This document shows positions 514 through 24,854 of a DNA stretch of 64,000 nt, one piece after another. The stretch spans positions 1 to 64,000 of the forward strand of contig NZ_AUZM01000002.1 of NCBI RefSeq assembly GCF_000478195.2, given 5' to 3'. This stretch comes from Lyngbya aestuarii BL J (GTDB lineage Bacteria; Cyanobacteriota; Cyanobacteriia; Cyanobacteriales; Microcoleaceae). The notes under the pieces are model-generated. The model made no database searches. It was not told the DNA's origin and saw only the letters and a list, made by a program, of their open reading frames with translations. The number at the start of each line of letters is the position of its first letter. The first letter of the stretch is position 1. The position numbers were made by a program, and so were the translations under genes.

Positions 514-1269
514 TTATAATTTAGATGATCGCTTGGAATTGAGAGTATCTAACAACTCGTTTTCAAACACCAATTCCATGCGATCTCCCCGAAATCGTGT
601 GATACCATATTCGATAATCCGACCATCTTGATCGACATTAATTGATTCCGCTAACAAAATGGGATGATTGAGCGGTAATCTCAGTAAACGGGCATCTTGG
701 GGACGAACAACCCGAGCAGAAACCCGCGTAGACTGACGAATATGATCGCAGCCATAAACTTCTCTAAGAAGCTGTGAAATTGACCACATTTTATGTTGAA
801 AAGATAAAATATTGGGGAAGTAAGACAGCGGAAAATGACCTGTAGAAATGCTAATCGGTTGGTCATCAACAAAAGTTAAACGTTCGATCAATGCCACTTT
901 ATCGCCACAGGAAACCTTTAAATTATTCGCCACTACCAAACTAGCCGGAATTTCAATAGCTTGTAACAGTTGAAAGCTCATTTCTAGCCCTTGCTCAGTC
1001 ATCGTGGCGTTGTAGCGAACCCGCTTACCAATGGGATATCGAATCGGTATTCCCGCAACAAAAGTACCGCGACCTTGATCAACACGCAACAATCCTTCAC
1101 TTTTGAGCAAAGCAATCGCCCGCCTGACCGTATGGCGGTTGACGCTAAAGTGTTCGCTCAACTGATTTTCGGTCGGTAATTTATCCCCAACCTGATAGAC
1201 TCCCTGATTGATATTTTGTCGCAACTCATTGGCGATTTGAGCGTATACAGGCACAGTATCACGGTTCAT
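514..1269 (-). CDS. phnF: GntR/HutC-family regulator, PhnF type
   Basis: This 251-residue protein has an N-terminal winged helix-turn-helix of GntR type (about residues 5-72, with LPTENQLSEHF and NRHTVRRAI) and a C-terminal UTRA effector domain (about 90-240). It is divergent from phnG, with 119 bases between the two starts. The family usually represses phosphonate genes until a phosphonate or phosphate-related ligand binds the UTRA domain. Two perfect palindromes with TTGTC/GACAA half-sites lie in the shared promoter region and are likely its operators. Assignment to PhnF rests on the UTRA architecture and the neighbouring C-P lyase genes. Confidence 0.9.
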   Translation of the reverse strand: MNRDTVPVYAQIANELRQNINQGVYQVGDKLPTENQLSEHFSVNRHTVRRAIALLKSEGLLRVDQGRGTFVAGIPIRYPIGKRVRYNATMTEQGLEMSFQLLQAIEIPASLVVANNLKVSCGDKVALIERLTFVDDQPISISTGHFPLSYFPNILSFQHKMWSISQLLREVYGCDHIRQSTRVSARVVRPQDARLLRLPLNHPILLAESINVDQDGRIIEYGITRFRGDRMELVFENELLDTLNSKRSSKL

Positions 1270-1388: not shown

Positions 1389-1838
1389 ATGTCAAATCTT
1401 GCCCAACGACAGGCTTGGATGGCAACTTTAGCAAAAGCTTCGTTAGAGCAATTGCAAGAGAAAATGGCAGGGCTAGAACCTTTGCCCCAATACAGTTTCT
1501 TGCGTCCACCAGAAATTGGTTTAACCCAGGTTCGGGGTCGAGCCGGAGGTACAGGACAGATTTTTAACTTAGGAGAAATGACATTAACTCGCTGCGTACT
1601 CAAACTTCATTCTCAACCGATGATAACAGGTTTTGGTTACGTTGCGGGGCGCGAACATTTTCATGCTGAGTTAGCGGCTTTGGCTGATGCTTTGATGCAG
1701 CATAATGACTGGTGCGAACGGGTTAAAAAAATAGTCATAGAACCCCTGCAAGCAGAGGCGATTCGTCAACAACAAACCCAACAGTCACAAACCGCTTCAA
1801 CTCAAGTTAATTTCTTTACTTTAGCTAGAGGAGAATAA
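1389..1838 (+). CDS. phnG: C-P lyase core subunit PhnG
   Basis: This 149-residue protein has PhnG hallmarks: an N-terminal QRQAWMATLAKA helix, a GLTQVRGRAGGTG segment, and GEMTLTRCVL followed by a conserved GFGYVAGRE. With PhnH, PhnI and PhnJ, PhnG forms the core complex. The complex exchanges adenine of ATP for a phosphonate and then cleaves the C-P bond. It is the first gene of the operon. Its length matches the usual roughly 150 residues. The C-terminal tail is rich in Gln and Thr and probably disordered. Confidence 0.93.
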   Translation: MSNLAQRQAWMATLAKASLEQLQEKMAGLEPLPQYSFLRPPEIGLTQVRGRAGGTGQIFNLGEMTLTRCVLKLHSQPMITGFGYVAGREHFHAELAALADALMQHNDWCERVKKIVIEPLQAEAIRQQQTQQSQTASTQVNFFTLARGE

Positions 1839-1885
1839 AATTATGAACGTATTAGTTTTATAAATGATTGAGCAATAAAATTGTT

Positions 1886-2470
1886 ATGAAAATTACTCAA
1901 TTCCCCGGGTTTCGGGTTGGAGTTCACGATGCTCAAATTACGTTCAGGACTCTTTTAAATGCTCTCTCTTATCCAGGAATGACTCAAGAGATTTGTGTTC
2001 AACTCACGCCTCCTCCTGGATTAACATTAGCTTGTGCTGCGGCGTGCTTATCTTTACTTGATTTAGATACAACTGTTTGGTTAAGTTCAGAGTTTGAGCC
2101 TGATGTAAAAGCGTGGTTAAAATTTCATACAGGTTGTCATTTTACAACTCATCCTCAAGCTGCTAGTTTTGCAATTATTCAAAAACTGAGTAATAGACCC
2201 TCTCTAGGTGATTTTAATTGGGGAACCGCAGAAAAACCCGAACTTTCAACCACTTTATTAATTCAAATAGAGTCATTAGCACCCTGTGAACCGATTCGCT
2301 TAAATGGGCCAGGAATTTCCGAGGAACAAGTGATCAAACTGCCGTTAGATTCAAGTTTTAGAGAGGAGTGGAATAAAAATCATCAGAGTTATCCGTTAGG
2401 AATTGATGTGTTTTTATTTAGGGAAAATACCATTATTGGTTTACCCCGAACAACAAATTTAAGTCTATAG
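1886..2470 (+). CDS. phnH: C-P lyase core subunit PhnH
   Basis: PhnH is a small PLP-transferase-like subunit of the C-P lyase core. GFRVGVHDAQITFRTLLNA near the N-terminus and the later GPGI are family features. I favour ATG 1886 because it gives 194 residues, the usual PhnH length. A TTG at 1868 in the same frame would add six residues. No good ribosome-binding site precedes either start. Two tiny frames, at 1843 (MNVLVL) and 1864 (MIEQ), sit directly in front, so the start may be reached by translational coupling. Confidence 0.9.
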   Translation: MKITQFPGFRVGVHDAQITFRTLLNALSYPGMTQEICVQLTPPPGLTLACAAACLSLLDLDTTVWLSSEFEPDVKAWLKFHTGCHFTTHPQAASFAIIQKLSNRPSLGDFNWGTAEKPELSTTLLIQIESLAPCEPIRLNGPGISEEQVIKLPLDSSFREEWNKNHQSYPLGIDVFLFRENTIIGLPRTTNLSL

Positions 2471-2500
2471 ATTTTATCAACAAATCAGGAGTGTATTGAA

Positions 2501-3670
2501 ATGCCTTATGTAGCAGTGAAAGGTGGACAACAGGCGATAGAAAATGCAGAAACATTGTTAAAAGCGTTACGACGAGGTGATCCAAATACACCCGAATTAA
2601 CCATAGAACAAATTAAACAACAACTGTCTTTAGCCGTAAACCGAGTCATGTGTGAAGGCAGTTTATATGACCCAGATTTAGCTGCTTTAGCCATTAAACA
2701 AGCTTGGGGAGATTTAGTCGAAGCAATCTTTTTAATTCGAGCTTATCGGACAACTTTACCCCGATTTTACCACAGTAAACCGTTAGAAACCAGCAAAATG
2801 CAAGTTCAACGGCGAATTTCTTCTATTTTCAAAGATATTCCCGGCGGACAAAAACTAGGCCCAACTTTTGATTATATTCATCGGTTATTAGACTTTAAAT
2901 TAGCAGCAGAAGAAAATAAAACTCCCACACCGCCAACAGCATCCCCCAACGAAGAAGCTGTTACTTCGGTTTTAAATTTGTTAGGACAAGAAGGACTAAT
3001 TCAAGACGAACCTCCCGAAGATAATCAACCCTTTGACCTAACTAAAAATCCTTTAAAATTACCCGCAGAACGAGATGAAAGACTACAAAATTTAGCCCGT
3101 GCAGATGAGGGATTTTTGCTGAGTTTAGCCTATTCAACTCAACGAGGATATGGTCGAAATCATCCCTTTGCAGGAGAAGTTTGCATGGGAGATGTGGAAG
3201 TGATTATTTGTCCAGAGGAGTTAGGTTTTGAAGTCGCCATTGCTGATATTACAGTCACAGAAGTGCAAATGGTCAATCAGTTTTCTGGAAACCAAAAAAT
3301 GTCACCTCAATTTACACGTGGATATGGTTTAACTTTTGGATATAATGAACGAAAAGCAATGTCAATGGCATTAGTTGATCGGGCAATGCGAGCGAAAGAA
3401 TTTGGTGAAGAAATTATGGGAATTGCTCAAGATGAGGAGTTTGTTTTGTCCCATTCTGATAACGTTCAAGCACAGGGATTTGTGCAGCATTTAAAGTTAC
3501 CTCATTATGTCGATTTTCAAGCAGAATTACATTTAGTTCGACAGATGCAACAAGAACAGATCAATAGTGATAATTCTTCGGTTCAAGAGTCTGATTCAAT
3601 CAATCCTGAACCTTCCCAAAATGAACAATCTTCTTGTTCTCCTAAAAGTTACTCCAAGTTATCTTCTTAG
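2501..3670 (+). CDS. phnI: C-P lyase core subunit PhnI
   Basis: PhnI is the nucleosidase-type subunit of the C-P lyase core and helps form the ribosyl-triphosphonate from ATP and a phosphonate. The protein begins MPYVAVKGGQQAIENAE, typical of PhnI, and contains the conserved block AYSTQRGYGRNHPFAGEV and, later, LSHSDNVQAQGFVQHLKLPHYVDF split over residues 310-345. At 389 residues it is longer than the roughly 355 usual. The excess is a Ser/Asn/Gln-rich tail after about residue 350, without family features. An AGGAG-like site precedes the ATG. Confidence 0.95.
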   Translation: MPYVAVKGGQQAIENAETLLKALRRGDPNTPELTIEQIKQQLSLAVNRVMCEGSLYDPDLAALAIKQAWGDLVEAIFLIRAYRTTLPRFYHSKPLETSKMQVQRRISSIFKDIPGGQKLGPTFDYIHRLLDFKLAAEENKTPTPPTASPNEEAVTSVLNLLGQEGLIQDEPPEDNQPFDLTKNPLKLPAERDERLQNLARADEGFLLSLAYSTQRGYGRNHPFAGEVCMGDVEVIICPEELGFEVAIADITVTEVQMVNQFSGNQKMSPQFTRGYGLTFGYNERKAMSMALVDRAMRAKEFGEEIMGIAQDEEFVLSHSDNVQAQGFVQHLKLPHYVDFQAELHLVRQMQQEQINSDNSSVQESDSINPEPSQNEQSSCSPKSYSKLSS

Positions 3671-3723
3671 CCTGGTTTATAATTGATCTATACGAGAAGT
3701 ATTAATCAAAGGAGATTTTAAGA

Positions 3724-4272
3724 ATGTCAGCTTTAACGGTTAAAGATTTGGAACACTTACAACGTCAAAACCCAGATTATCAGATGGAATTAGTTGGGGG
3801 AGAAATTATCATTATGAGTCCATCCGGGTTAGAATCAGATGAAGTTGCTGCTGCAATTATTGCTCAATTATCTAACTGGATTCGTCCTCGTCGTTTAGGG
3901 CGAGTTACAGCCTCAAGTGCGGGTTTTATCTTACCCAATACAGATCATGATGTGCGGGCGCCGGATGCTGCTTTTATTCGAGCCGAACGACTCAAAAAAA
4001 CAACAGAAAACTATGCTGAAGTGGTTCCCGATTTGATTTTTGAAGTGAAGTCAAAGTCTGATTATTTAACGAAGTTGCGTCAGAAAATACAAGCATTTTT
4101 AACAACCGGAACCCAAATCGGAGTATTAGTTGATCCGCGAACTCGCACAATAGAAGTTTATCGCCTAAATGCTGAAAAAATGATTCTACAAGATGGAGAG
4201 ATTCTCACAGTACCAGAGGTGCTTCCGGGTTGGGAATTACCACTTTCAGAAATTTGGGCACCCGAATTTTAA
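3724..4272 (+). CDS. Uma2-family (DUF820) putative PD-(D/E)xK nuclease inside the phn operon
   Basis: This 182-residue protein has the Uma2 pattern: an N-terminal segment ending MELVGGEIIIMSPSG, the conserved APDAAFI aspartate, and FEVKSKSD carrying the E-x-K of the restriction-endonuclease-like fold. Uma2 genes are extremely abundant in cyanobacteria and their biological role is unclear. Here the gene lies between phnI and phnJ on the same strand, 53 bases after one and 37 before the other, with its own AAAGGAG site. It is therefore probably co-transcribed but not known to be part of C-P lyase. It may be an insertion that kept the operon intact. Confidence 0.88.
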   Translation: MSALTVKDLEHLQRQNPDYQMELVGGEIIIMSPSGLESDEVAAAIIAQLSNWIRPRRLGRVTASSAGFILPNTDHDVRAPDAAFIRAERLKKTTENYAEVVPDLIFEVKSKSDYLTKLRQKIQAFLTTGTQIGVLVDPRTRTIEVYRLNAEKMILQDGEILTVPEVLPGWELPLSEIWAPEF

Positions 4273-4309
4273 TCCTTTAGTTTAGAACAAACTTACTCAA
4301 AAATTAACC

Positions 4310-5164
4310 ATGATTTCTAATTCTAAAAATCAATCTTACGAAGGGTTTAACTTTGCCTATCTAGACGAACAAACTAAACGTTCAATTCGTCGAACTCTTT
4401 TAAAAGCCGTTGCTATTCCAGGTCATCAAATCCCCTTTTCTTCTAAAGAAATGCCCATGTCCTACGGTTGGGGAACAGGAGGAATTCAAGTTACTGCTTC
4501 TGTGATTGGAAAAACAGATGTTTTAAAAGTGATTGATCAAGGTTCAGATGATACGACAAATGCTGTTAATATTCGGCGTTTTTTTGCGAAAGTTTGTAAT
4601 ATTAAAACCACTGAAAAAACATCAGAAGCTACTTTGATTCAAACTCGACATCGGATTCCCGAAACACCTTTAAAAGAAGGTCAAGTGATGGTTTATCAAG
4701 TTCCTATTCCTGAACCGTTGCGTTGGTTAGAACCCTCAGAAGTGCAAACTCAAAAAATGCACGCCCTAGAAGAATATGGTTCAATGTACGTTAAACTCTA
4801 CGAAGATATTACTAAATATGGTTATATTTCCACCTCTTATGATTATCCGGTTATGGTTAATCATCGCTATTTAATGAGTCCAAGTCCTATTCCTCGATTT
4901 GATAATCCTAAACTGAATAATTCTCCAGCATTACAACTATTTGGGGCGGGACGAGAAAAGCGAATTTATGCTATTCCTCCCTATACTTGTGTGAAAAGTT
5001 TAGACTTTGAAGATCATCCGTTTTCCGTCGAAAAATGGAATAAACCCTGTCAACTTTGCGGATCAATAGAAAGTTATTTAGATGAAGTCATAATGGATGA
5101 CCAAGGGACAAGAATGTGGGTGTGTTCAGATAGCGATTATTGTCAGCAGCAACAGCAAAAATAA
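4310..5164 (+). CDS. phnJ: Radical-SAM C-P lyase PhnJ
   Basis: PhnJ cleaves the C-P bond of 5-phosphoribosyl 1-phosphonate by radical SAM chemistry, giving an alkane and the 1,2-cyclic phosphate. The 284-residue protein keeps the C-terminal cysteine set: C247-x2-C250, then C272 after 21 residues and C278 after 5 more. This spacing is that of the Escherichia coli enzyme, whose last cysteine is the thiyl radical residue. The block MSYGWGTGGIQ near residue 50 is also conserved. The tail ends in a short glutamine run. All key residues are present, so the enzyme should be active. Confidence 0.97.
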   Translation: MISNSKNQSYEGFNFAYLDEQTKRSIRRTLLKAVAIPGHQIPFSSKEMPMSYGWGTGGIQVTASVIGKTDVLKVIDQGSDDTTNAVNIRRFFAKVCNIKTTEKTSEATLIQTRHRIPETPLKEGQVMVYQVPIPEPLRWLEPSEVQTQKMHALEEYGSMYVKLYEDITKYGYISTSYDYPVMVNHRYLMSPSPIPRFDNPKLNNSPALQLFGAGREKRIYAIPPYTCVKSLDFEDHPFSVEKWNKPCQLCGSIESYLDEVIMDDQGTRMWVCSDSDYCQQQQQK

Positions 5165-5212
5165 GGTATAATTGAAACGAAAAACTCGAACGATCAATAG
5201 AGTATTTGAATC

Positions 5213-5875
5213 ATGTTAAAGTTTTATCACACTCCCTTGTCTGTTAATAGTCGTCGGGTTTGGGTAATGTTATTAGAAAAGCAAGTTGAATTTGAGGAAA
5301 TCGTTCTCAGCTTACAAGGAGATCAATTTGATGCTGAGTATTTAAAATTAAATCCTTTTCATCATATCCCGACTCTTGTTGATGATGATTTTACCTTAAT
5401 TGAATCTCTAGCGATTTTAGATTATCTAGAAGCCAAATATCCAACCCCTAGTTTTACACCCAAAGACGCTAAAGCCATTGGAATTATGCGGATGATAGAA
5501 TTAGTAACAGTCAATGAACTTTTACCCACAACTTTACCGCTATTAAAACAGAGGGTTGGTTTACCAGAAGATCCGAAACAACCGTTAGAAGCCGTTTACC
5601 AAAAGATTACAACTATTTTTGATTTTTATCAAAAGTATTTAGGTGACAATCCTTATTTAGTGGGCGAACAAATAACGCTGGCTGATATTGTCGTTGGCAC
5701 TGTTATCCCCACATTAAAATATATGAATATCTCCCTTGAAAATCATCCTCAACTGCAAGACTGGTGTGAACGGTTAATGTTGCGAGAAAGTTGGAAAAAA
5801 ACCGAACAAAAGCCAGAATATATTGAAGCTTCTTACGCTAAAATTAAAGCCATTTTAACCCAAAAAAATCAATAA
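5213..5875 (+). CDS. Glutathione S-transferase family protein in the phn operon
   Basis: The 220-residue protein has an N-terminal thioredoxin-fold GST domain (about 1-80), with NPFHHIPTLVDD supplying the cis-proline and LIESLAILDYLEAKYP the Glu-Ser that binds glutathione. An all-helical C-terminal domain follows (about 90-205), including LVGEQITLADIVVGT. It sits between phnJ and phnK, 48 bases after the first and 11 before the second, so it is co-transcribed. No GST is part of known C-P lyase. A role in thiol or redox protection of the PhnJ radical or cysteine site, or in handling a conjugated phosphonate, is conjecture. Confidence 0.85.
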   Translation: MLKFYHTPLSVNSRRVWVMLLEKQVEFEEIVLSLQGDQFDAEYLKLNPFHHIPTLVDDDFTLIESLAILDYLEAKYPTPSFTPKDAKAIGIMRMIELVTVNELLPTTLPLLKQRVGLPEDPKQPLEAVYQKITTIFDFYQKYLGDNPYLVGEQITLADIVVGTVIPTLKYMNISLENHPQLQDWCERLMLRESWKKTEQKPEYIEASYAKIKAILTQKNQ

Positions 5876-5886
5876 GTTAATAATCT

Positions 5887-6666
5887 ATGAATAAGATTAA
5901 ACCCTTGCTTACTGTAGATAATCTAAGTAAAAATTACGGTTCAACTCAAGCTTGTAATGATATTTCTTTTACGCTTTATTCGGGTCAAGTGTTAGGAATA
6001 GTTGGTGAATCCGGTTCGGGTAAATCAACCTTACTCAAAGCAATTGCTGGATTTTTATCTATCGAACAGGGTAAAATAAACTATTTAAACCGTCAAGAAA
6101 AATGGTTAGATTTTCAACAAATTTCTGAATCCCATCGACGTCAACTGATGCGAACAGAATGGGGATTTGTTCAGCAAAATCCTCGGGATGGTTTACGGAT
6201 GAATATCACAGCAGGTGCGAATATTGGTGAACGTTTAATGGATATTGGGGTGCGAAATTATGGTAAAATTCGTCAAGAAATTGCCTATTGGTTAGAACAG
6301 GTTGAAATCGATTGTCGTTGGATGGATGAACTTCCCACTACTTTTTCGGGAGGAATGCAGCAACGCCTACAAATTGCCAGAGTTTTAGTGACTCAACCCC
6401 GTTTAATTTTAATGGATGAACCCACCGGAGGATTGGATGTTTCGGTACAAGCAAGATTGTTAGATTTATTACGTTCTTTAGTGAGAACTTTAAATTTAAG
6501 TGTTATTTTAGTGACTCACGATATCGGAGTTGTACGGTTACTTGCTCATCGGTTATTTGTGATGAAAAATGGCAAAATTGTAGAGTATGGATTAACCGAT
6601 CAAGTATTAGATGATCCTCAACATCCCTACACCCAACAGTTGGTGAGTGCGACTCTCATCCCTTAG
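5887..6666 (+). CDS. phnK: C-P lyase ABC-type ATPase PhnK
   Basis: The 259-residue ABC ATPase has Walker A GESGSGKST (near residue 42), signature FSGGMQQRLQIAR (near 155), Walker B LILMDEPTGGLD and an H-loop VTHD. PhnK docks on the PhnGHIJ core rather than on a membrane permease and couples ATP binding to the reaction cycle. It is 11 bases after the GST gene and 24 before phnL. Order and motifs make PhnK much more likely than a peptide-transport ATPase, which it resembles in sequence. Confidence 0.95.
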   Translation: MNKIKPLLTVDNLSKNYGSTQACNDISFTLYSGQVLGIVGESGSGKSTLLKAIAGFLSIEQGKINYLNRQEKWLDFQQISESHRRQLMRTEWGFVQQNPRDGLRMNITAGANIGERLMDIGVRNYGKIRQEIAYWLEQVEIDCRWMDELPTTFSGGMQQRLQIARVLVTQPRLILMDEPTGGLDVSVQARLLDLLRSLVRTLNLSVILVTHDIGVVRLLAHRLFVMKNGKIVEYGLTDQVLDDPQHPYTQQLVSATLIP

Positions 6667-6690
6667 TTAATATCATAAAAACGAAAAAAA

Positions 6691-7431
6691 ATGACAAAAA
6701 TGCAACTCAAACATCAACCCATTGAGTCTGTAATTTATGACTCTGATGATTCTATTTTACTCAAAGCGGAGAACCTTTCTAAAGGCTTTACTTTGCACAA
6801 TCAGGGGAGTGTTTCTCTCTCTGTTTTAAAAGAAGTCTCTCTCCAAGTTAAACAAGGAGAAGGAGTCGCATTATCGGGAAAATCAGGTTCAGGAAAGTCT
6901 ACCTTTATGCGATTACTTTATGGAAATTACCGAGTTGATAGCGGTTCAATTTGGATCAAACATCACCAAAATTGGGTAGATTTAACTCGACTAGAACCCC
7001 ACGAACTCTTAGAAGTGCGACAGACAACAATCGGCTATGTCAGTCAATTTTTGCGCGTTATTCCTCGGGTTCCAGCGTTAGAGATTGCCGTAGAACCTTT
7101 ACTAGAGTTAGGGGAAAATATAGACACCGCTTATGAAAAAGTTCAACAGCTTTTTATTCACCTCAACTTACCCGAACGACTCTGGAGTTTATCTCCAACA
7201 ACGTTTTCAGGTGGAGAAAAACAACGGGTGAATATTGCTCGGGCTTTATCGGTAGATTATCCAATTTTACTTTTAGATGAACCGACTTCTGCTTTAGATG
7301 AAAGTAACTCTCAAGCCGTAATCCAACTGTTACAAGAACGTCAAGCCAAAGGTTCTGCTTTAATTGGAATCTTTCACGACGAAGGAGTTAGAAATCAGCT
7401 TTGTCTGCGAGAATTAACCTTTGGTGATTAG
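6691..7431 (+). CDS. phnL: C-P lyase ABC-type ATPase PhnL
   Basis: The 246-residue ABC ATPase has Walker A GKSGSGKST, signature FSGGEKQRVNIARAL and Walker B LLLDEPTSALD. The LENLSKGFTLH-like opening (AENLSKGFTLHNQG here) is characteristic of PhnL. With PhnK it forms the ATPase pair associated with the C-P lyase complex. A 25-residue N-terminal extension precedes the usual start, so translation could also begin internally. The gene ends the first operon segment; the next gene is on the opposite strand. Confidence 0.94.
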   Translation: MTKMQLKHQPIESVIYDSDDSILLKAENLSKGFTLHNQGSVSLSVLKEVSLQVKQGEGVALSGKSGSGKSTFMRLLYGNYRVDSGSIWIKHHQNWVDLTRLEPHELLEVRQTTIGYVSQFLRVIPRVPALEIAVEPLLELGENIDTAYEKVQQLFIHLNLPERLWSLSPTTFSGGEKQRVNIARALSVDYPILLLDEPTSALDESNSQAVIQLLQERQAKGSALIGIFHDEGVRNQLCLRELTFGD

Positions 7432-7449: not shown

Positions 7450-7743
7450 TTAAACTTCGTAATCAACTGCAAGAATCTCTGCTAAAATGGGCTTGATCAA
7501 ATTCTGCACCACAGCTTGATGATCCGGATGTGGAGTATAAGCCTCCAAAGCTGTTTTATCTGTAAATTTAACGACTAATCCATGCTGAAATCCCTGAGAA
7601 CGTTCAGAAAAATTGGTTCCACAGGATAAGTCGATAATACCGGGAATTTTAGTTTTTAATTCTTTCAGTCCCTCTAGAACTGCTGCAATTGCTTCTGGTG
7701 TCGCTTCTTCTGTCCATTTAAACAAAACAACGTGTATAATCAT
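7450..7743 (-). CDS. Dabb (stress-responsive A/B barrel) family protein
   Basis: The small protein begins MIIHVVLFKW, the classic opening of Dabb ferredoxin-like dimeric barrels, and continues with GLKELKTKIPGI and a C-terminal HPDHQAVV segment. I prefer the ATG at 7743, giving 97 residues, over the longer frame from 7767 because the family begins exactly at this MIIHVV. It lies on the minus strand between phnL and phnM, interrupting the collinear phn genes, and converges with phnL. Dabb proteins are linked to stress or polyketide cyclisation; the role here is unknown. Confidence 0.85.
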   Translation of the reverse strand: MIIHVVLFKWTEEATPEAIAAVLEGLKELKTKIPGIIDLSCGTNFSERSQGFQHGLVVKFTDKTALEAYTPHPDHQAVVQNLIKPILAEILAVDYEV

Positions 7744-7867
7744 TCTTGCTGAGATCCTAATCATCATTTAAACGCCTTTAGAATTTTAGCAGAATTTTCG
7801 TTACAATATTAAAGTTTGAGAATTAAAAACCTTGATTAATTTTAGATTAACTAACAATTAAGAAACC

Positions 7868-9004
7868 ATGAATGAACAAGTCTACACCAATTATCGTCTA
7901 CAACTTCCAGATCAAGAATTGATAGGAACTTTAGTCGTTCGTGACGGCAAAATTGCAGACATTCAACCTGGTGTTGTTCCCACGGGTCAAAATGGTCAGG
8001 GAGACTATTTAATGCCGGGATTAATCGAACTCCATACCGATAATTTAGAAAAATGTATGTCTCCTCGTCCAAGCGTTAAATGGCCGTTAGAAGCTGCTGC
8101 AACTTACCATGATCGGGATTTAATTGGTGCAGGAATTACAACGGTTTGTGATGCAATTGGGATTGGAGATATTAAACCCGGTTCTAAGCGGATGAGTCAT
8201 TTTAGACCGATGATTGAGGTGATTTTAGACGGACAAAAAGCCGGAAGATTTACAGCCGATCATCGCCTACATTTACGATGTGAACTTTCCTATGATCAAG
8301 TTTGTGATGTCGCCAATGACTATAGCGAACATCCCTTACTTTCGCTCATTTCAGTCATGGATCATACACCCGGACAACGACAGTTTGTAGATGTAAAAAG
8401 ATACACAGAATATTATATGGGAAAATATGGATTTTCTGCCCACGAAATGGAAAACTTTGTCAAAATGCGTCGTGATTTGCAACAAAAATATGCAGAAAAC
8501 AACCGAAAATCTATTATCCAACTCACTCAAGCCAAAAATATTTCTTTAGCCACTCACGATGATGCCACTGTAGAACACGTTCAAGAAGCAGTTGAAAATG
8601 GTGCAACCATTGCCGAATTTCCAACCACATTAGATGCAGCCAAAACCGCTCATAAATCGGGTTTAAAAGTATTAATGGGTTCACCCAATTTAGTGTTAGG
8701 TGGCTCACATTCAGGTAATATTTCCGCAATGGAACTAATTCAACAAGATCTCGTTGATATTCTTTCCTCTGATTATGTTCCTCATAGCTTGTTACAATCT
8801 ATTTTTATTATTGCAAATCAGCTTAAAAAACCGATTTATGAAGCCATGCGTCTCGTCACCAGCAACCCCGCAAAAGCAATTAATTTATTTCAAGAACGAG
8901 GCAGTTTAGACATCGGAAAACAAGCCGATTTAATCACCGTTCATAATGATGGAATCGTTCCCCGCATCACTTCTGTAATTCGTCAAGGTCAACGAGTGGC
9001 ATAA
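7868..9004 (+). CDS. phnM: Alpha-D-ribose 1-methylphosphonate 5-triphosphate diphosphatase PhnM
   Basis: PhnM is an amidohydrolase-fold metal enzyme that removes pyrophosphate from the ribosyl-phosphonate triphosphate before PhnJ acts. The 378-residue protein shows the metal-binding block LIELHTDNLEKCMSPRP (near residue 55), GAGITTVCDAIGIGD, MGSPNLVLGGSHSGN and SSDYVPHS. The length is normal. It lies 100 bases beyond the start of the opposing Dabb gene, so it probably has its own promoter. It heads a second group of phosphonate genes that continues with a 2H phosphoesterase and an HD oxygenase. Confidence 0.95.
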   Translation: MNEQVYTNYRLQLPDQELIGTLVVRDGKIADIQPGVVPTGQNGQGDYLMPGLIELHTDNLEKCMSPRPSVKWPLEAAATYHDRDLIGAGITTVCDAIGIGDIKPGSKRMSHFRPMIEVILDGQKAGRFTADHRLHLRCELSYDQVCDVANDYSEHPLLSLISVMDHTPGQRQFVDVKRYTEYYMGKYGFSAHEMENFVKMRRDLQQKYAENNRKSIIQLTQAKNISLATHDDATVEHVQEAVENGATIAEFPTTLDAAKTAHKSGLKVLMGSPNLVLGGSHSGNISAMELIQQDLVDILSSDYVPHSLLQSIFIIANQLKKPIYEAMRLVTSNPAKAINLFQERGSLDIGKQADLITVHNDGIVPRITSVIRQGQRVA

Positions 9005-9041
9005 TAGCTAAAAATTAAAAGAACGAAAAATCCCGATCAAG

Positions 9042-9578
9042 ATGATGAACACTGAACAATTTATTATCTATGCTTGTCCAGTCGGAGAACTCAATGAACA
9101 AATTAATCTTTATTTCCAAAAAAGCCAAGAACACTGTGGAGAAAATCCCGCCCATGATTATATGCCCCATTGTTCCCTCACCGGATTTTTTAACGCCAAT
9201 CCAAATAGGATTCCTGATTACTTGAACAGTCTCGATCAAATCTATCATCAATCTGAAAATCTCTCTTTAGATATAAAAATTGTGCAGATGATGTTCAAAC
9301 CGAAGTGGCATGGTTTAGAATTAAAAGCATCCGGTTTAAAACACCTAATCGCTAACTTTGCCGAAATCATGCACCGTCAACCTATTGAGGAAAATATTCG
9401 ACTCAAAGACTGGCTTCATATTAGTTTCGCCTATAAATTTCAACCCCAACACCATGAAACCTTAAAAAAACTGGCTGAAAATACGATTAATCCTGAATCT
9501 CTAACTCAATGGGAATTACGATTTTATCAAAAATATTCTAACGGCTGCTGGACTTGTTTACAATCTTGGACTCTATAA
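9042..9578 (+). CDS. 2H-superfamily phosphoesterase, candidate cyclic phosphodiesterase of the phn pathway
   Basis: The 178-residue protein carries two copies of the 2H motif His-x-Ser-hydrophobic: HCSL at residues 43-46 and HISF at 126-129, about 80 residues apart as in cyclic phosphodiesterases. It follows phnM by 37 bases. C-P lyase yields a 5-phosphoribosyl 1,2-cyclic phosphate that PhnP normally opens, and no phnP-like metallo-beta-lactamase is in this window. A 2H enzyme, whose family opens cyclic phosphates, could fill that step; this is inference. It is shorter than the roughly 230-residue 2H (DUF1045-type) proteins I associate with phn operons. Confidence 0.72.
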   Translation: MMNTEQFIIYACPVGELNEQINLYFQKSQEHCGENPAHDYMPHCSLTGFFNANPNRIPDYLNSLDQIYHQSENLSLDIKIVQMMFKPKWHGLELKASGLKHLIANFAEIMHRQPIEENIRLKDWLHISFAYKFQPQHHETLKKLAENTINPESLTQWELRFYQKYSNGCWTCLQSWTL

Positions 9579-9612: not shown

Positions 9613-10182
9613 ATGATTCAATTCCAATCCACCATGAAACTTGGCTTTGAACAAATCATTGAAATCCTTAAAACTCGGGGTCATGAACAATATGGTCAAG
9701 AAAACGTAAGTCAACTCGAACACGCCTTACAATCTGCGACATTAGCACAATCTAATGATGCTTCTTCTGAACTGATCACCGCTTGTTTATTGCATGACTT
9801 CGGACATCTCATTCATCAGTGGGGAGAAGATGCCGCCATACGCGGAATTGATGATCGCCATGAGTATTGTGCCTTACCTTTCTTGAGCTTATTATTTAGT
9901 TCGGCGGTGACTGAACCGATTCGTCTTCATGTCGCAGCTAAACGTTATCTTTGTATCACCAATTCCGAATATTGGCAAACATTATCCCCCGCGTCTCAAC
10001 ACAGTTTGAACCTACAAGGGGGAATTTTTTCGCCCGATGAAGCAACCACATTTATTAATCATCCCTATGCAAAAGATGCCATCAAGCTGCGAATTTGGGA
10101 TGATCAAGCCAAACAAGTCAATTATTCAACTCCGAGTTTAGAAGACTTCATTCCCACTCTCCAGGCTTGTCTAAAGTCCTAA
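9613..10182 (+). CDS. PhnZ-type HD-domain phosphonate oxygenase
   Basis: The 189-residue HD-domain protein matches the family of phosphonate-degrading di-iron oxygenases. Candidate metal ligands are H37, H61-D62, H83, H106 and D163 or D164. LHVAAKRYLC around H106 is a family signature. Y27 and E30 correspond in spacing to the substrate-gating Tyr/Glu that I recall in PhnZ. PhnZ oxidatively cleaves 2-amino-1-hydroxyethylphosphonate to glycine and phosphate. No PhnY-like 2-oxoglutarate dioxygenase, its usual partner, is in the window. The gene is 34 bases after the 2H gene, so the two are likely co-transcribed. Confidence 0.85.
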   Translation: MIQFQSTMKLGFEQIIEILKTRGHEQYGQENVSQLEHALQSATLAQSNDASSELITACLLHDFGHLIHQWGEDAAIRGIDDRHEYCALPFLSLLFSSAVTEPIRLHVAAKRYLCITNSEYWQTLSPASQHSLNLQGGIFSPDEATTFINHPYAKDAIKLRIWDDQAKQVNYSTPSLEDFIPTLQACLKS

Positions 10183-10331: not shown

Positions 10332-11033
10332 ATGGAAACCCGTTCAAAAATCACACATATTATTTACGATCTAGATGGTTTACTGTTAGATACAGAACCT
10401 CTCCATGCCAAAGTTAACCAAATGTTGGCGAGTCGTTATGACAAATTGATCGAGCCTTCTTTAATGTGTAAATTGCGAGGTCGAAAATCCCATGATTCAG
10501 CAAAACTCATTATTGAAATGCTCGAAATTCCCTTAAGCGTTGAAGCGTATCTCACCGAAAAAGATGCGATTATTTATCAATATTATGCCCATGTTCCGCC
10601 CTTAGAAGGTGCGGTTGAACTCACCCAACATTTGGCGACTCATCGCATTCCTCAAGCCATCGCCACCAGTTCGAGTAGTCGTCCCTATGCGGCCAAAACT
10701 CAAAGTCATCAGCAATGGTTTTCGATGTTTCAATGTATTATTCGGGGTGATGATCCCCAACTCAAAAATGGCAAACCTGCACCCGATATTTTCTTACTCG
10801 CCGCCCAACGTTTAGGGGCTAAACCGGAAAATTGTTTAGTGTTTGAAGATGCCTTAGCGGGAGTTGCCGCCGCCAAAGCAGCAGGAATGGCTGTGGTGGC
10901 TGTTCCGGCAGCAGATATGGATCAACAACTCTATCTCGAAGCCGATCAAATTCTCAATTCTTTAAGTGAATTTCAACCCGAAGACTGGCAATTACCCCGC
11001 TTTAATTCATCAGTAAACGCTTCTAAACTTTGA
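10332..11033 (+). CDS. HAD-superfamily (subfamily IA) phosphatase
   Basis: The 233-residue protein has the HAD motif I DLDGLLLDTEPLH (nucleophile Asp near residue 15), motif II in ATSSSSRPY, the motif III lysine in KNGKPAPDIF and motif IV in FEDALAGVAAAKAAGM. It resembles GS1/HDHD1-type phosphatases acting on small sugar or nucleoside phosphates. It follows the phosphonate genes on the same strand after a 149-base gap holding a hairpin, so co-transcription is uncertain. It could process a sugar phosphate from the C-P lyase pathway, but nothing in the sequence proves that. Its 3' end overlaps the opposing CHAT gene by 11 bases. Confidence 0.85.
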   Translation: METRSKITHIIYDLDGLLLDTEPLHAKVNQMLASRYDKLIEPSLMCKLRGRKSHDSAKLIIEMLEIPLSVEAYLTEKDAIIYQYYAHVPPLEGAVELTQHLATHRIPQAIATSSSSRPYAAKTQSHQQWFSMFQCIIRGDDPQLKNGKPAPDIFLLAAQRLGAKPENCLVFEDALAGVAAAKAAGMAVVAVPAADMDQQLYLEADQILNSLSEFQPEDWQLPRFNSSVNASKL

Positions 11034-21621: not shown

Positions 21622-21872
21622 CTACTGTTGACTGCTCACAGGTGACTGTCAAAGCTGATCCCCAATTTGCTAAAATGTTATCATTTGATGACAATACGAT
21701 CCCCGAGTTGCCGATAAATCCGTACATTTACTTATAATTTGTTGCACTCCCCCCTTGACCACTCGAAAAATATTCTTCAATATATTGAGTAATTAAGCGA
21801 TCCCCACGATCCCAAAGAAAAGCTACAGATACACCTAAATTGTTGTTGTTAGAAGTGGAGAACATCAAGCTC
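21622..21872. other. Leader region of the DUF4912 gene
   Basis: Between the ftn2 terminator and the DUF4912 start I see only A/T-rich sequence, including a TATTCTTCAATATATTGAG palindrome-like patch near 21770-21788. The promoter is probably here. No small gene was found. Confidence 0.4.
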
Positions 21873-24854
21873 ATGGTTAAAGATCGTCCCCCCTTAGAAG
21901 AGATGACATTGAGACAACTGCGTAAAGTTGCGAGTGAATACGGAATCTCGCGTTATAGTCGAATGAGAAAATCACAGCTTTTAGCCTCTATTCAAGAAAT
22001 TGAACGCCAAAGAATGGGATTATCCAGTCCCTCCGCCTCAACACTCAAGTCTCAAGAGGAGGTAGAAGCTGCCAAATTTTCAGTCGGTCAAGCAGAACAA
22101 GTAGATGAAGTTTTGTCCTCTGTAGACGAAGAACTCGCTGATTTACCCATCGGATATGGTTTAAGTCGCATTGTGTTGATGGCCAGAGATCCAGAATGGG
22201 CTTATGCGTACTGGGATGTCTCTAGCGAACACAAAGAAGAATTTCGCCGCCAAGGAGGAGAACAACTCACTCTGAGAATTTACGATGTTACAGAGATTAA
22301 CCTAGCCTATCAAAGTCCCCACAGCATTCAGGAATATCCCTGTGATGAACTTGCTCGGGAATGGTATGTACCGATTCCTGTTAGCGATCGCGAATATGTG
22401 ATAGAAATTGGTTATCGTTGTGCAGATGGTCGCTGGTTGATCTTGGCTCGTTCTGCGGCGATTCGTATTCCGCCCATATATCCTTCAGACTGGATCGAGG
22501 ATCAATTCATCACCGTATCTTGGGATGAGGAACTTCAGGGTAAAACCTTTGCAGAATTGACCCCACCCACTCAACCTGGAAGTGATACTGAAGATCGCCT
22601 CTACAAAGAGATTTTTGGTATAGATGATCTAGAAGCAACAAGAGTTACAGGTTCATTATTTGGTTCCATGCACCAAGTTTCCTTACACGAAGAAACGGTA
22701 AGTTCCTACGTCTTACCCTCTAGTGTGGGTCAATGGGCTTCTGGTATTGGACAAACGATGTCTGGCGCTGGCTTAACCACTTCTGGCGCTGGTTTAACCA
22801 CTTCTGGCGCTGGCTTAACCACTTCTGGAGTAGGAATCGGACAAACGATGTCTGGCGCTGGTTTAACCACTTCTGGCGCTGGCTTAACCACTTCTGGAGT
22901 AGGAATCGGACAAACGATGTCTGGTGCGGGTTTAACCACTTCTGGTATTGGTTTAACCACTTCTGGAGTAGGAATCGGACAAACGATGTCTGGCGCTGGC
23001 TTAACCACTTCTGGAGTAGGAATCGGACAAACGATGTCTGGTGCGGGTTTAACCACTTCTGGCGCTGGCTTAACCACTTCTGGAGTAGGAATCGGACAAA
23101 CGATGTCTGGCGCTGGCTTAACCACTTCTGGAGTAGGAATCGGACAAACGATGTCTGGTGCGGGTTTAACCACTTCTGGCGCTGGCTTAACCACTTCTGG
23201 AGTAGGAATCGGACAAACGATGTCTGGCGCTGGCTTAACCACTTCTGGAGTAGGATTAACTGCTTCTGGAGTAGGAATGGCGAAGTCCATGTCTGGAATT
23301 GGACAAACCATGTCTGGAGTAGGATTAACTGCTTCTGGAGTAGGATTAACTGCTTCTGGAGTAGGAATGGCGAAGTCCATGTCTGGAATTGGACAAACCA
23401 TGTCTGGAGTAGGATTAACTGCTTCTGGAGTAGGATTAACTGCTTCTGGAGTAGGAATGGCGAAGTCCATGTCTGGAATTGGACAAACCATGTCTGGAGT
23501 AGGATTAACTGCTTCTGGAGTAGGATTAACCACTTCTGGAGTAGGAATCGGACAAACGATGTCTGGCGCTGGTTTAACCACTTCTGGTATTGGCTTAACC
23601 ACTTCTGGAGTAGGAATCGGACAAACGATGTCTGGCGCTGGTTTAACCACTTCTGGTATTGGCTTAACCACTTCTGGAGTAGGAATCGGACAAACGATGT
23701 CTGGCGCTGGTTTAACCACTTCTGGCGCTGGCTTAACCACTTCTGGAGTAGGAATCGGACAAACGATGTCTGGCGCTGGTTTAACCACTTCTGGCGCTGG
23801 CTTAACCACTTCTGGAGTAGGAATCGGACAAACGATGTCTGGTGCGGGTTTAACCACTTCTGGCGCTGGCTTAACCACTTCTGGAGTAGGAATCGGACAA
23901 ACGATGTCTGGTGCGGGTTTAACCACTTCTGGCGCTGGCTTAACCACTTCTGGAGTAGGAATTGGACAAACGATGTCTGGCGCTGGTTTAACCACTTCTG
24001 GAGTAGGAATTGGACAAACGATGTCTGGCGCTGGTTTAACCACTTCTGGAGTAGGAATTGGAGAACGAATGTCTGGAGTGGGAATGAATATGTCTGGTGT
24101 CGGACAAACGATGTCTGGCGCTGGTTTAACCACTTCTGGGGCGGCAATTGGAGAACGAATGTCTGGAGTGGGAATGAATATGTCTGGCGCTGGTTTAACC
24201 GCTTCTGGTGCGGCAATTGGAGAACGGATGTCTGGAGTAGGAATGAATATGTCTGGCGCTGGTTTAACCACTTCTGGCGCTGGTTTAACCACTTCTGGAG
24301 TAGGAATTGGACAAACGATGTCTGGCGCTGGTTTAACCGCTTCTGGTGCGGCAATTGGAGAACGGATGTCTGGGGTGGGAATGAATATGTCTGGTGTCGG
24401 ACAAACGATGTCTGGCGCTGGTTTAACGGCTTCTGGTGCTGGTTTAACCGCTTCTGGCGCTGGTTTAACGGCTTCTGGTGCGGGAATGAATATGTCGGGT
24501 TATGGAATGGGCTTAACCATGTCCGGTGTGGGAATGTCCGGTGTGGGAATGGGGGCTTCTATACCTCCTGTTCGTCCCCGTAAGTTCTGGTTAGTTGCGG
24601 AAGCCGAATTAATCATTTACGGTGCGACTGAACCCGATGCAACGGTTACGATTGGTGGACGACCCATTAAACTGAATCCGGATGGTACGTTCCGCATTCA
24701 AGTTTCCTTCCCCGATGGTGTGATTGACTATCCAATTATGGCGGTGGCTGCTGACGGTGAACAAACTCGTTCTATTCACATGAACTTTAATCGTGAAACC
24801 CCAGAACGTCACACCAATACAAAAGAAGAAGCCGTTTTAGAATGGATCGGTTAA
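21873..24854 (+). CDS. DUF4912 protein with a roughly 600-residue Gly/Ser/Thr tandem repeat
   Basis: From ATG 21873 the protein is 993 residues; a TTG at 21840 would add 11. Residues 5-45 resemble a Rho-N/SAP-like helix pair (MTLRQLRKVASEYGI). Residues 90-220 are DUF4912 (WAYAYWDVSSEHKEEF, LTLRIYDVT). About 290-895 are repeats of two units, a 9-mer like VGIGQTMSG and a 7-mer like AGLTTSG, mostly in 23- and 16-residue blocks. A second conserved domain ends the protein (FWLVAEAELIIYGATEPDA). Function is unknown; the array may form an extended beta structure. Copy number is likely to vary between strains. There is no signal peptide. Confidence 0.88.
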   Translation: MVKDRPPLEEMTLRQLRKVASEYGISRYSRMRKSQLLASIQEIERQRMGLSSPSASTLKSQEEVEAAKFSVGQAEQVDEVLSSVDEELADLPIGYGLSRIVLMARDPEWAYAYWDVSSEHKEEFRRQGGEQLTLRIYDVTEINLAYQSPHSIQEYPCDELAREWYVPIPVSDREYVIEIGYRCADGRWLILARSAAIRIPPIYPSDWIEDQFITVSWDEELQGKTFAELTPPTQPGSDTEDRLYKEIFGIDDLEATRVTGSLFGSMHQVSLHEETVSSYVLPSSVGQWASGIGQTMSGAGLTTSGAGLTTSGAGLTTSGVGIGQTMSGAGLTTSGAGLTTSGVGIGQTMSGAGLTTSGIGLTTSGVGIGQTMSGAGLTTSGVGIGQTMSGAGLTTSGAGLTTSGVGIGQTMSGAGLTTSGVGIGQTMSGAGLTTSGAGLTTSGVGIGQTMSGAGLTTSGVGLTASGVGMAKSMSGIGQTMSGVGLTASGVGLTASGVGMAKSMSGIGQTMSGVGLTASGVGLTASGVGMAKSMSGIGQTMSGVGLTASGVGLTTSGVGIGQTMSGAGLTTSGIGLTTSGVGIGQTMSGAGLTTSGIGLTTSGVGIGQTMSGAGLTTSGAGLTTSGVGIGQTMSGAGLTTSGAGLTTSGVGIGQTMSGAGLTTSGAGLTTSGVGIGQTMSGAGLTTSGAGLTTSGVGIGQTMSGAGLTTSGVGIGQTMSGAGLTTSGVGIGERMSGVGMNMSGVGQTMSGAGLTTSGAAIGERMSGVGMNMSGAGLTASGAAIGERMSGVGMNMSGAGLTTSGAGLTTSGVGIGQTMSGAGLTASGAAIGERMSGVGMNMSGVGQTMSGAGLTASGAGLTASGAGLTASGAGMNMSGYGMGLTMSGVGMSGVGMGASIPPVRPRKFWLVAEAELIIYGATEPDATVTIGGRPIKLNPDGTFRIQVSFPDGVIDYPIMAVAADGEQTRSIHMNFNRETPERHTNTKEEAVLEWIG
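22738..24560 (+). repeat. Coding minisatellite, 69-, 48- and 90-base units
   Basis: The array encodes the Gly/Ser repeats of the DUF4912 protein. The main unit of 69 bases encodes one 9-mer plus two 7-mers. A 48-base form has one 7-mer. A 90-base form with ATGGCGAAGTCCATG occurs three times in perfect phase (anchors at 23281, 23371 and 23461). Units are multiples of three, so other frames stay open too: more than 500 codons on both minus frames and 616 codons in another plus frame. Near-identity of the units suggests recent expansion or gene conversion. Confidence 0.9.

Follow-up and report, generated by a model that had tools for sequence, protein, structure and literature searches.

A 2H phosphoesterase of an unnamed family next to phnM as a candidate metal-free substitute for PhnP in C-P lyase clusters of cyanobacteria

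The window, that is the whole stretch of 64,000 nucleotides that was analyzed, contains a cluster with the phnGHIJKLM core of C-P lyase. A small gene located directly after phnM encodes the protein studied here, for which we propose hydrolysis of 5-phosphoribosyl 1,2-cyclic phosphate (PRcP). The features of the locus are listed below.

514–1269, minus strand: phnF regulator, divergent (TIGR02325 235.3 bits, cut-off 156.8)
1389–7431, plus strand: open reading frames of phnG, phnH, phnI, a Uma2-type nuclease, phnJ, a GST-like protein, phnK and phnL
4310–5164, plus strand: phnJ, C-P lyase catalytic subunit (PF06007 499.1 bits at 4343–5158)
7450–7767, minus strand: Dabb-domain gene between phnL and phnM (PF07876 98.9 bits)
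7836–7861, no strand assigned: TTAA-N7-TTAA-N7-TTAA, a triple layout like that of cyanobacterial Pho boxes, just upstream of the phnM start
7868–9004, plus strand: phnM, ribosyl 1-alkylphosphonate 5-triphosphate diphosphatase, 378 aa (TIGR02318 494 bits, cut-off 390.55)
9042–9578, plus strand: gene of the 178-aa 2H phosphoesterase (family unnamed), proposed to hydrolyze PRcP without a metal
9613–10182, plus strand: Phn-HD, a PhnZ-like HD-domain phosphonate oxygenase (TIGR03276 227.9 bits, cut-off 214.6)
10332–11033, plus strand: HAD-superfamily phosphatase of the beta-phosphoglucomutase/YqaB group (PF13419 86.6 bits)

The genes phnG, phnH and phnI were named from their order and from similarity among clusters. 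PhnK and PhnL both scored over the cut-offs of their families (TIGR02323, 367.9 bits; TIGR02324, 331.6 bits), and no phnN was seen in the cluster. The genes for the Uma2-type nuclease (3724–4272) and the GST-like protein (5213–5875) flank phnJ inside the phn operon. Gaps of 37 nt and 34 nt separate the 2H gene from phnM and from the Phn-HD gene, respectively. Because the Dabb gene between phnL and phnM faces the opposite way, phnM, the 2H gene and the genes for Phn-HD and the HAD protein probably form their own transcription unit, separate from phnG-phnL. The HAD protein reached 120.2 bits with TIGR02009, under the cut-off of 153.35. An earlier, sequence-only reading of this DNA had included neither the Dabb gene nor the Phn-HD and HAD genes downstream, nor the occurrence of the 2H family outside C-P lyase genomes.

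The element at 7836–7861 is the sole occurrence of its layout in the 64 kb, where 0.02 would be expected, with 6 nt between its end and the start of phnM. Its interpretation as a Pho box is post hoc. The consensus of the cyanobacterial Pho box, as given in an excerpt of PMC1906773, is CTTAACCT; compared with the two-box consensus, the element matched once, with at least two mismatches in each orientation. The TTAA triple layout was missing from the region preceding phnM at 13 related loci, and the element could equally serve the divergent Dabb gene.

The 2H protein displays the motifs H43-C-S45-L46 and H126-I-S128-F129. In an alignment of 50 members, both histidines were kept in 50/50 relatives, as were Thr/Ser at position 45 (50/50) and Ser/Thr at position 128 (50/50). 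R120, K122, Y131, W157, R160 and Y162 were likewise conserved in 50/50. The AlphaFold model computed from this alignment (pLDDT 93.9) adopted a 2H fold. Given this conservation and the predicted fold, the His-x-Ser motifs are not due to chance. Thus, the sequence-only reading, which had described the two motifs, the 37-nt gap and the position of phnM, was correct on each according to the list of open reading frames and the conservation, and its view of the protein as a 2H phosphoesterase is borne out by the model and its structural matches. The best matches were 2H enzymes, including drCPDase, YjcG, LigT, the Arabidopsis CPDase and Usb1. The top Foldseek match was the Arabidopsis Appr>p cyclic phosphodiesterase 1fsi (E 2e-4, 8% identity over 191 columns). 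VIA-align gave Z values of 13.8 for drCPDase, 13.3 for YjcG, 12.9 for LigT and 12.2 for 1fsi, differences under 1 being read as ties. The predicted 2H fold is therefore secure, and the substrate cannot be fixed from the fold alone.

Sequence profiles placed the protein in no named family. Searched alone, it matched no Pfam family at E<=1, and the only NCBIfam match was PRK13679, which scored 21.6 bits where 129 are required. YjcG, the PRK13679 protein of known structure (2D4G), and the LigT-type 2',3'-cyclic phosphodiesterases share the fold (Z 12.9–13.3) but only 13–14% identity. PF13563 (2_5_RNA_ligase2) did not match the window protein; it was detected in 38/50 relatives at E<=0.1 (best 4.3e-6), and three single members of the family scored 15.9–19.3 bits, compared with a gathering score of 27. 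Membership of DUF1045/RcsF was rejected, since neither PF06299 nor TIGR03223 matched the window protein at E<=1. A search of PDB sequences with the 50-member profile retrieved 0 chains at E<=10.

In the described pathway, PhnJ produces PRcP, PhnP opens the ring and PhnN makes PRPP (PMC3840354, from an excerpt). The absence of PhnP from the window cluster, claimed by the sequence-only reading, was confirmed, and it extends to the whole genome: no protein scored over the TIGR03307 cut-off of 272.25 bits, the best reaching 41.7 bits. RNase Z-type models scored better on this protein, the gene of which adjoins a chorismate-synthase-like open reading frame (named from sequence). A hidden PhnP in this genome, which the sequence-only reading had named as evidence against its proposal, was rejected, the two best matches being this RNase Z-type-like MBL protein and RNase Z itself; four weaker matches ranked below them. 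More broadly, PhnP was over cut-off in 0/62 genomes, 44 of these with PhnJ, and DUF1045 (TIGR03223) was detected in 0/62 at E<=0.001. As controls for the PhnP profile, E. coli was matched and 1/14 controls scored over cut-off. The one PhnP-like match of this search, with 101.9 bits in genome G421, was also rejected, other MBL families scoring better (NF038231, 310.4 bits; PRK02113, 280.6 bits); no phn genes were recognized near it in the part of the contig examined.

The distribution of the family was surveyed in 386 evenly sampled cyanobacterial genomes and in 251 Chloroflexota genomes. In addition, a scan of the genome collection with a six-member alignment yielded 53 loci, 51 in records with cyanobacterial names and 2 in records labelled Chloroflexi or Chloroflexales. 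The family was present in 6/386 cyanobacterial genomes; the 50-member profile gave 7/386, the seventh being a short match with internal stops. PhnJ was found in 12/386, and 3 of these also carried the 2H family, compared with about 0.2 expected (Fisher p 0.0004). The other half of the sampled 2H genomes (3/6) had no PhnJ. Among the genomes reached through 2H loci, PhnJ was present in 32/47 and absent in 15/47, two of the 47 (L093 and L094) having no intact 2H frame. The comparison of 32/47 with 9/380 among 2H-negative genomes gave a p of 1e-28, which ignores kinship and overstates independence because many rows are related (Okeania, Pleurocapsales). By name groups, 25/34 include a PhnJ genome. 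In Chloroflexota, the 2H family was detected in 4/251 genomes, PhnJ in 20/251 and both in 3 (p 0.0017 when the centre genome is counted and 0.016 when it is left out). The sequence-only reading had proposed a survey of C-P lyase clusters lacking phnP for this gene. Such a survey supports it in that PhnJ is enriched in genomes with the family, and goes against it in that 8/12 sampled cyanobacteria with PhnJ have neither this family nor PhnP.

These data bear on whether the protein serves a general clean-up of cyclic phosphates, of the nucleoside 2',3'-cyclic or ADP-ribose type, with only a loose relation to the phnM neighborhood. The RNA and nucleotide cyclic phosphodiesterases LigT and drCPDase fit the model at about the same Z, the 15 of 47 genomes devoid of PhnJ are in line with such a role, many 2H loci lie away from phn genes, and some genomes without C-P lyase hold 2H-HAD pairs. 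However, PhnJ is many-fold enriched in 2H genomes of two phyla, phnM or a paralogue accompanies the 2H gene in 20 of 53 loci, and a house-keeping enzyme would hardly be confined to 6 of 386 genomes. We consider a clean-up function unlikely.

The 20/53 loci with phnM or a phnM paralogue in the neighborhood of the 2H gene include 13 in which the 2H gene is immediately preceded by phnM on its own strand, at distances of -8 to 232 nt. PhnJ is present in 14/18 genomes holding linked loci. In the three Chloroflexota genomes with both PhnJ and the 2H family, a few kb at most separate the 2H gene from phnM, and the same is true of G421. A tree of 50 proteins, in which many forks are weak, implies that linkage was gained or lost 6 times or more; linkage is thus spread across several clades. 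One might suppose that phnM and the 2H gene make up a two-enzyme module, which acts on a different compound of the ribosyl 5-triphosphate/1,2-cyclic phosphate kind and which C-P lyase clusters have borrowed. This would fit the phnM-2H pairs found without PhnJ in four genomes, G070, G391, G398 and G423 (L044:4307–6065, L049:5731–7540, L059:5829–7537 and L085:4370–6137), L059 being on a 5.4 Mb scaffold, and the divergent orientation of phnM-2H relative to the other phn genes in L045, L054 and L090. The PhnJ-bearing majority of genomes with linked loci speaks against it, and some of the four genomes without PhnJ are draft assemblies that may be incomplete, so that such an origin appears quite improbable to us. 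The PhnJ-less pairs hint at a role of the pair that is independent of C-P lyase.

The neighboring Phn-HD gene raises a different question, namely whether the 2H protein belongs to the oxidative, PhnZ-like route and not to C-P lyase. The 2H gene directly precedes Phn-HD in the window and in L060, L063, L065, L085 and L088. However, Phn-HD is present in 7/20 linked loci, compared with 20/20 for phnM or its paralogue, and PhnZ-type chemistry is not known to yield a cyclic phosphate. An involvement in the oxidative route is thus very improbable.

Other observations argue against a simple exchange of PhnP for this family. The 12 sampled cyanobacterial genomes with PhnJ comprise 3 with the 2H family, 1 (Nodularia) with a different 2H-like gene and 8 with neither, and PhnP is also missing from these 8. 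With none of the three, these 8 genomes must handle PRcP otherwise. The 2H family is therefore one solution among several and cannot be the whole answer for cyanobacteria. Moreover, G305 and G170, which possess both 2H and PhnJ, carry the two genes on different contigs, and in Planktothrix-type loci the 2H gene adjoins a HAD gene, closely related to that of the window, with PhnJ absent (6/6). Since 2H-HAD and phnM-2H loci persist without PhnJ, and the same 15 of 47 genomes lack it, part of the family likely has a second substrate or role.

Altogether, we find it rather probable that the window gene, a member of an unnamed 2H family, encodes an enzyme that hydrolyzes PRcP without a metal and so performs the step of PhnP. 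The replacement proposed by the sequence-only reading is favored by the fold, by the co-occurrence with PhnJ in two phyla, by adjacency to phnM and by the lack of PhnP in all 62 genomes; as a general rule it is weakened by the 8 of 12 PhnJ genomes with neither 2H type and by family members in genomes without PhnJ. The analysis shows the sequence, its conserved motifs, the predicted fold, the co-occurrence with PhnJ, the order of the genes and the absence of PhnP, and we infer the substrate, the product, the metal independence and what the HAD protein does. The 2H protein would open the PRcP that PhnJ produces, with H43 and H126, each followed two residues on by Ser/Thr, acting as acid and base and no metal taking part. 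By analogy with the plant enzyme, which leaves the 1-phosphate, the product would likely be ribose 1,5-bisphosphate. The HAD phosphatase encoded downstream may then remove one phosphate. A HAD gene is located beside the 2H gene, or one gene after it, in the window, in L065 and in the six Planktothrix-type loci, which makes the HAD phosphatase a plausible next enzyme.

The E. coli metallo-hydrolase PhnP (TIGR03307) carries out the same proposed step, from PRcP to ribose 1,5-bisphosphate, whereas the window protein has an unrelated 2H fold and a sequence without the HxHxDH metal motif. The Arabidopsis CPDase 1fsi, the top Foldseek match, also acts on a ribose 1,2-cyclic phosphate, as indicated by reference titles in PMC5283653 and by the title of its PDB entry; however, it is a plant enzyme of 8% identity with no tie to phosphonates. 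The use of a 2H protein as a substitute for PhnP, which the sequence-only reading had put forward as a distinct solution, is already in print. According to excerpts of the published texts, RcsF, a 2H protein in clusters without phnP, likely has the same role (PMC3840354, 2013), a SEED survey placed rcsF in 16 operons lacking phnP (PMC10574752, 2023), and DUF1045, which often adjoins phnM and whose function is called uncertain, has been proposed to act as a phosphoribosyl cyclic phosphodiesterase (PMC8235418, 2021). In our own reading, RcsF and DUF1045 are one family (PF06299, TIGR03223) of proteobacterial C-P lyase operons. It resembles the window protein in being 2H, in its presence in C-P lyase clusters without phnP and in the proposed opening of PRcP. 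It differs in that the window protein has about 180 aa, compared with 228 positions in the TIGR03223 model, and gives no profile match, and in that the window family occurs in Cyanobacteriota and Chloroflexota, also outside C-P lyase genomes. Thus, the idea is not new; this family and its distribution are. In the accessible portions of the open-licence literature, the cyanobacterial 2H family was not described, and no 2H protein had been assayed on PRcP.

Further 2H-like genes were found near phnM. In Nodularia, a second type of 2H-like protein is encoded two genes after phnM (L034:6470–7093). It scored under cut-off with DUF1045 (17.2 bits), TIGR03223 (20.3 bits) and TIGR02258 (17.6 bits), its single-sequence AlphaFold model had a pLDDT of 35.6, a homologue was absent in 39/40 genomes, and hhalign found nothing between it and the window family. 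Its assignment as 2H-like therefore stems from two His-x-Thr motifs. Between this gene and phnM lies L034:7235–7846, the product of which has roughly 200 aa and contains a conserved TCTTKHG motif; relatives are present in the phn loci L036, L043 and L113. Neither of the two Nodularia proteins reached a Pfam cut-off. In a Chloroflexota phn cluster, L136:14295–14981 encodes a PF13563-type 2H protein (44.4 bits, cut-off 27) located 6 nt from phnM, with no hhalign alignment to the window family; this cluster also encodes an MBL protein that reached 31.3 bits with the PhnP profile. Counting the window family of Cyanobacteriota and Chloroflexota, the Nodularia 2H-like gene and the L136 protein as subfamilies, it is conceivable, and we suggest it tentatively, that non-proteobacterial C-P lyases recruited several unrelated 2H subfamilies, each located by phnM, as metal-free PRcP hydrolases, phnM-2H being a portable module that persists without C-P lyase in some lineages.

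C-P lyase converts phosphonates to phosphate, and methylphosphonate to methane in oxygenated water. According to an excerpt of a review (PMC10574752), the cyanobacterium Trichodesmium uses phosphonates for growth although it lacks PhnN, PhnO and PhnP, which raises the question of the enzyme by which cyanobacteria open the cyclic intermediate. Here, the only 2H match in Trichodesmium was a frameshifted copy in the MAG L093, in the assembly of which PhnJ was not found. The 2H family offers a concrete and easily expressed candidate for this step in part of the cyanobacteria. If it is confirmed, C-P lyase clusters would have swapped one step at least twice for an unrelated metal-free enzyme, and such a replacement might suit metal-poor waters.

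Two minor observations were made along the way. Many cyanobacterial phn clusters encode, besides PhnM, another protein that resembles it (about 32% identity) and often adjoins Phn-HD, such as L031:5174–6370 (NF011987, 583.6 bits), with similar proteins in L032, L033, L035, L060, L063, L065 and L070. Elsewhere in the window, the open reading frame at 21840–24854 (1004 aa) consists largely of GLTTSGVGIGQTMSGA-type repeats.
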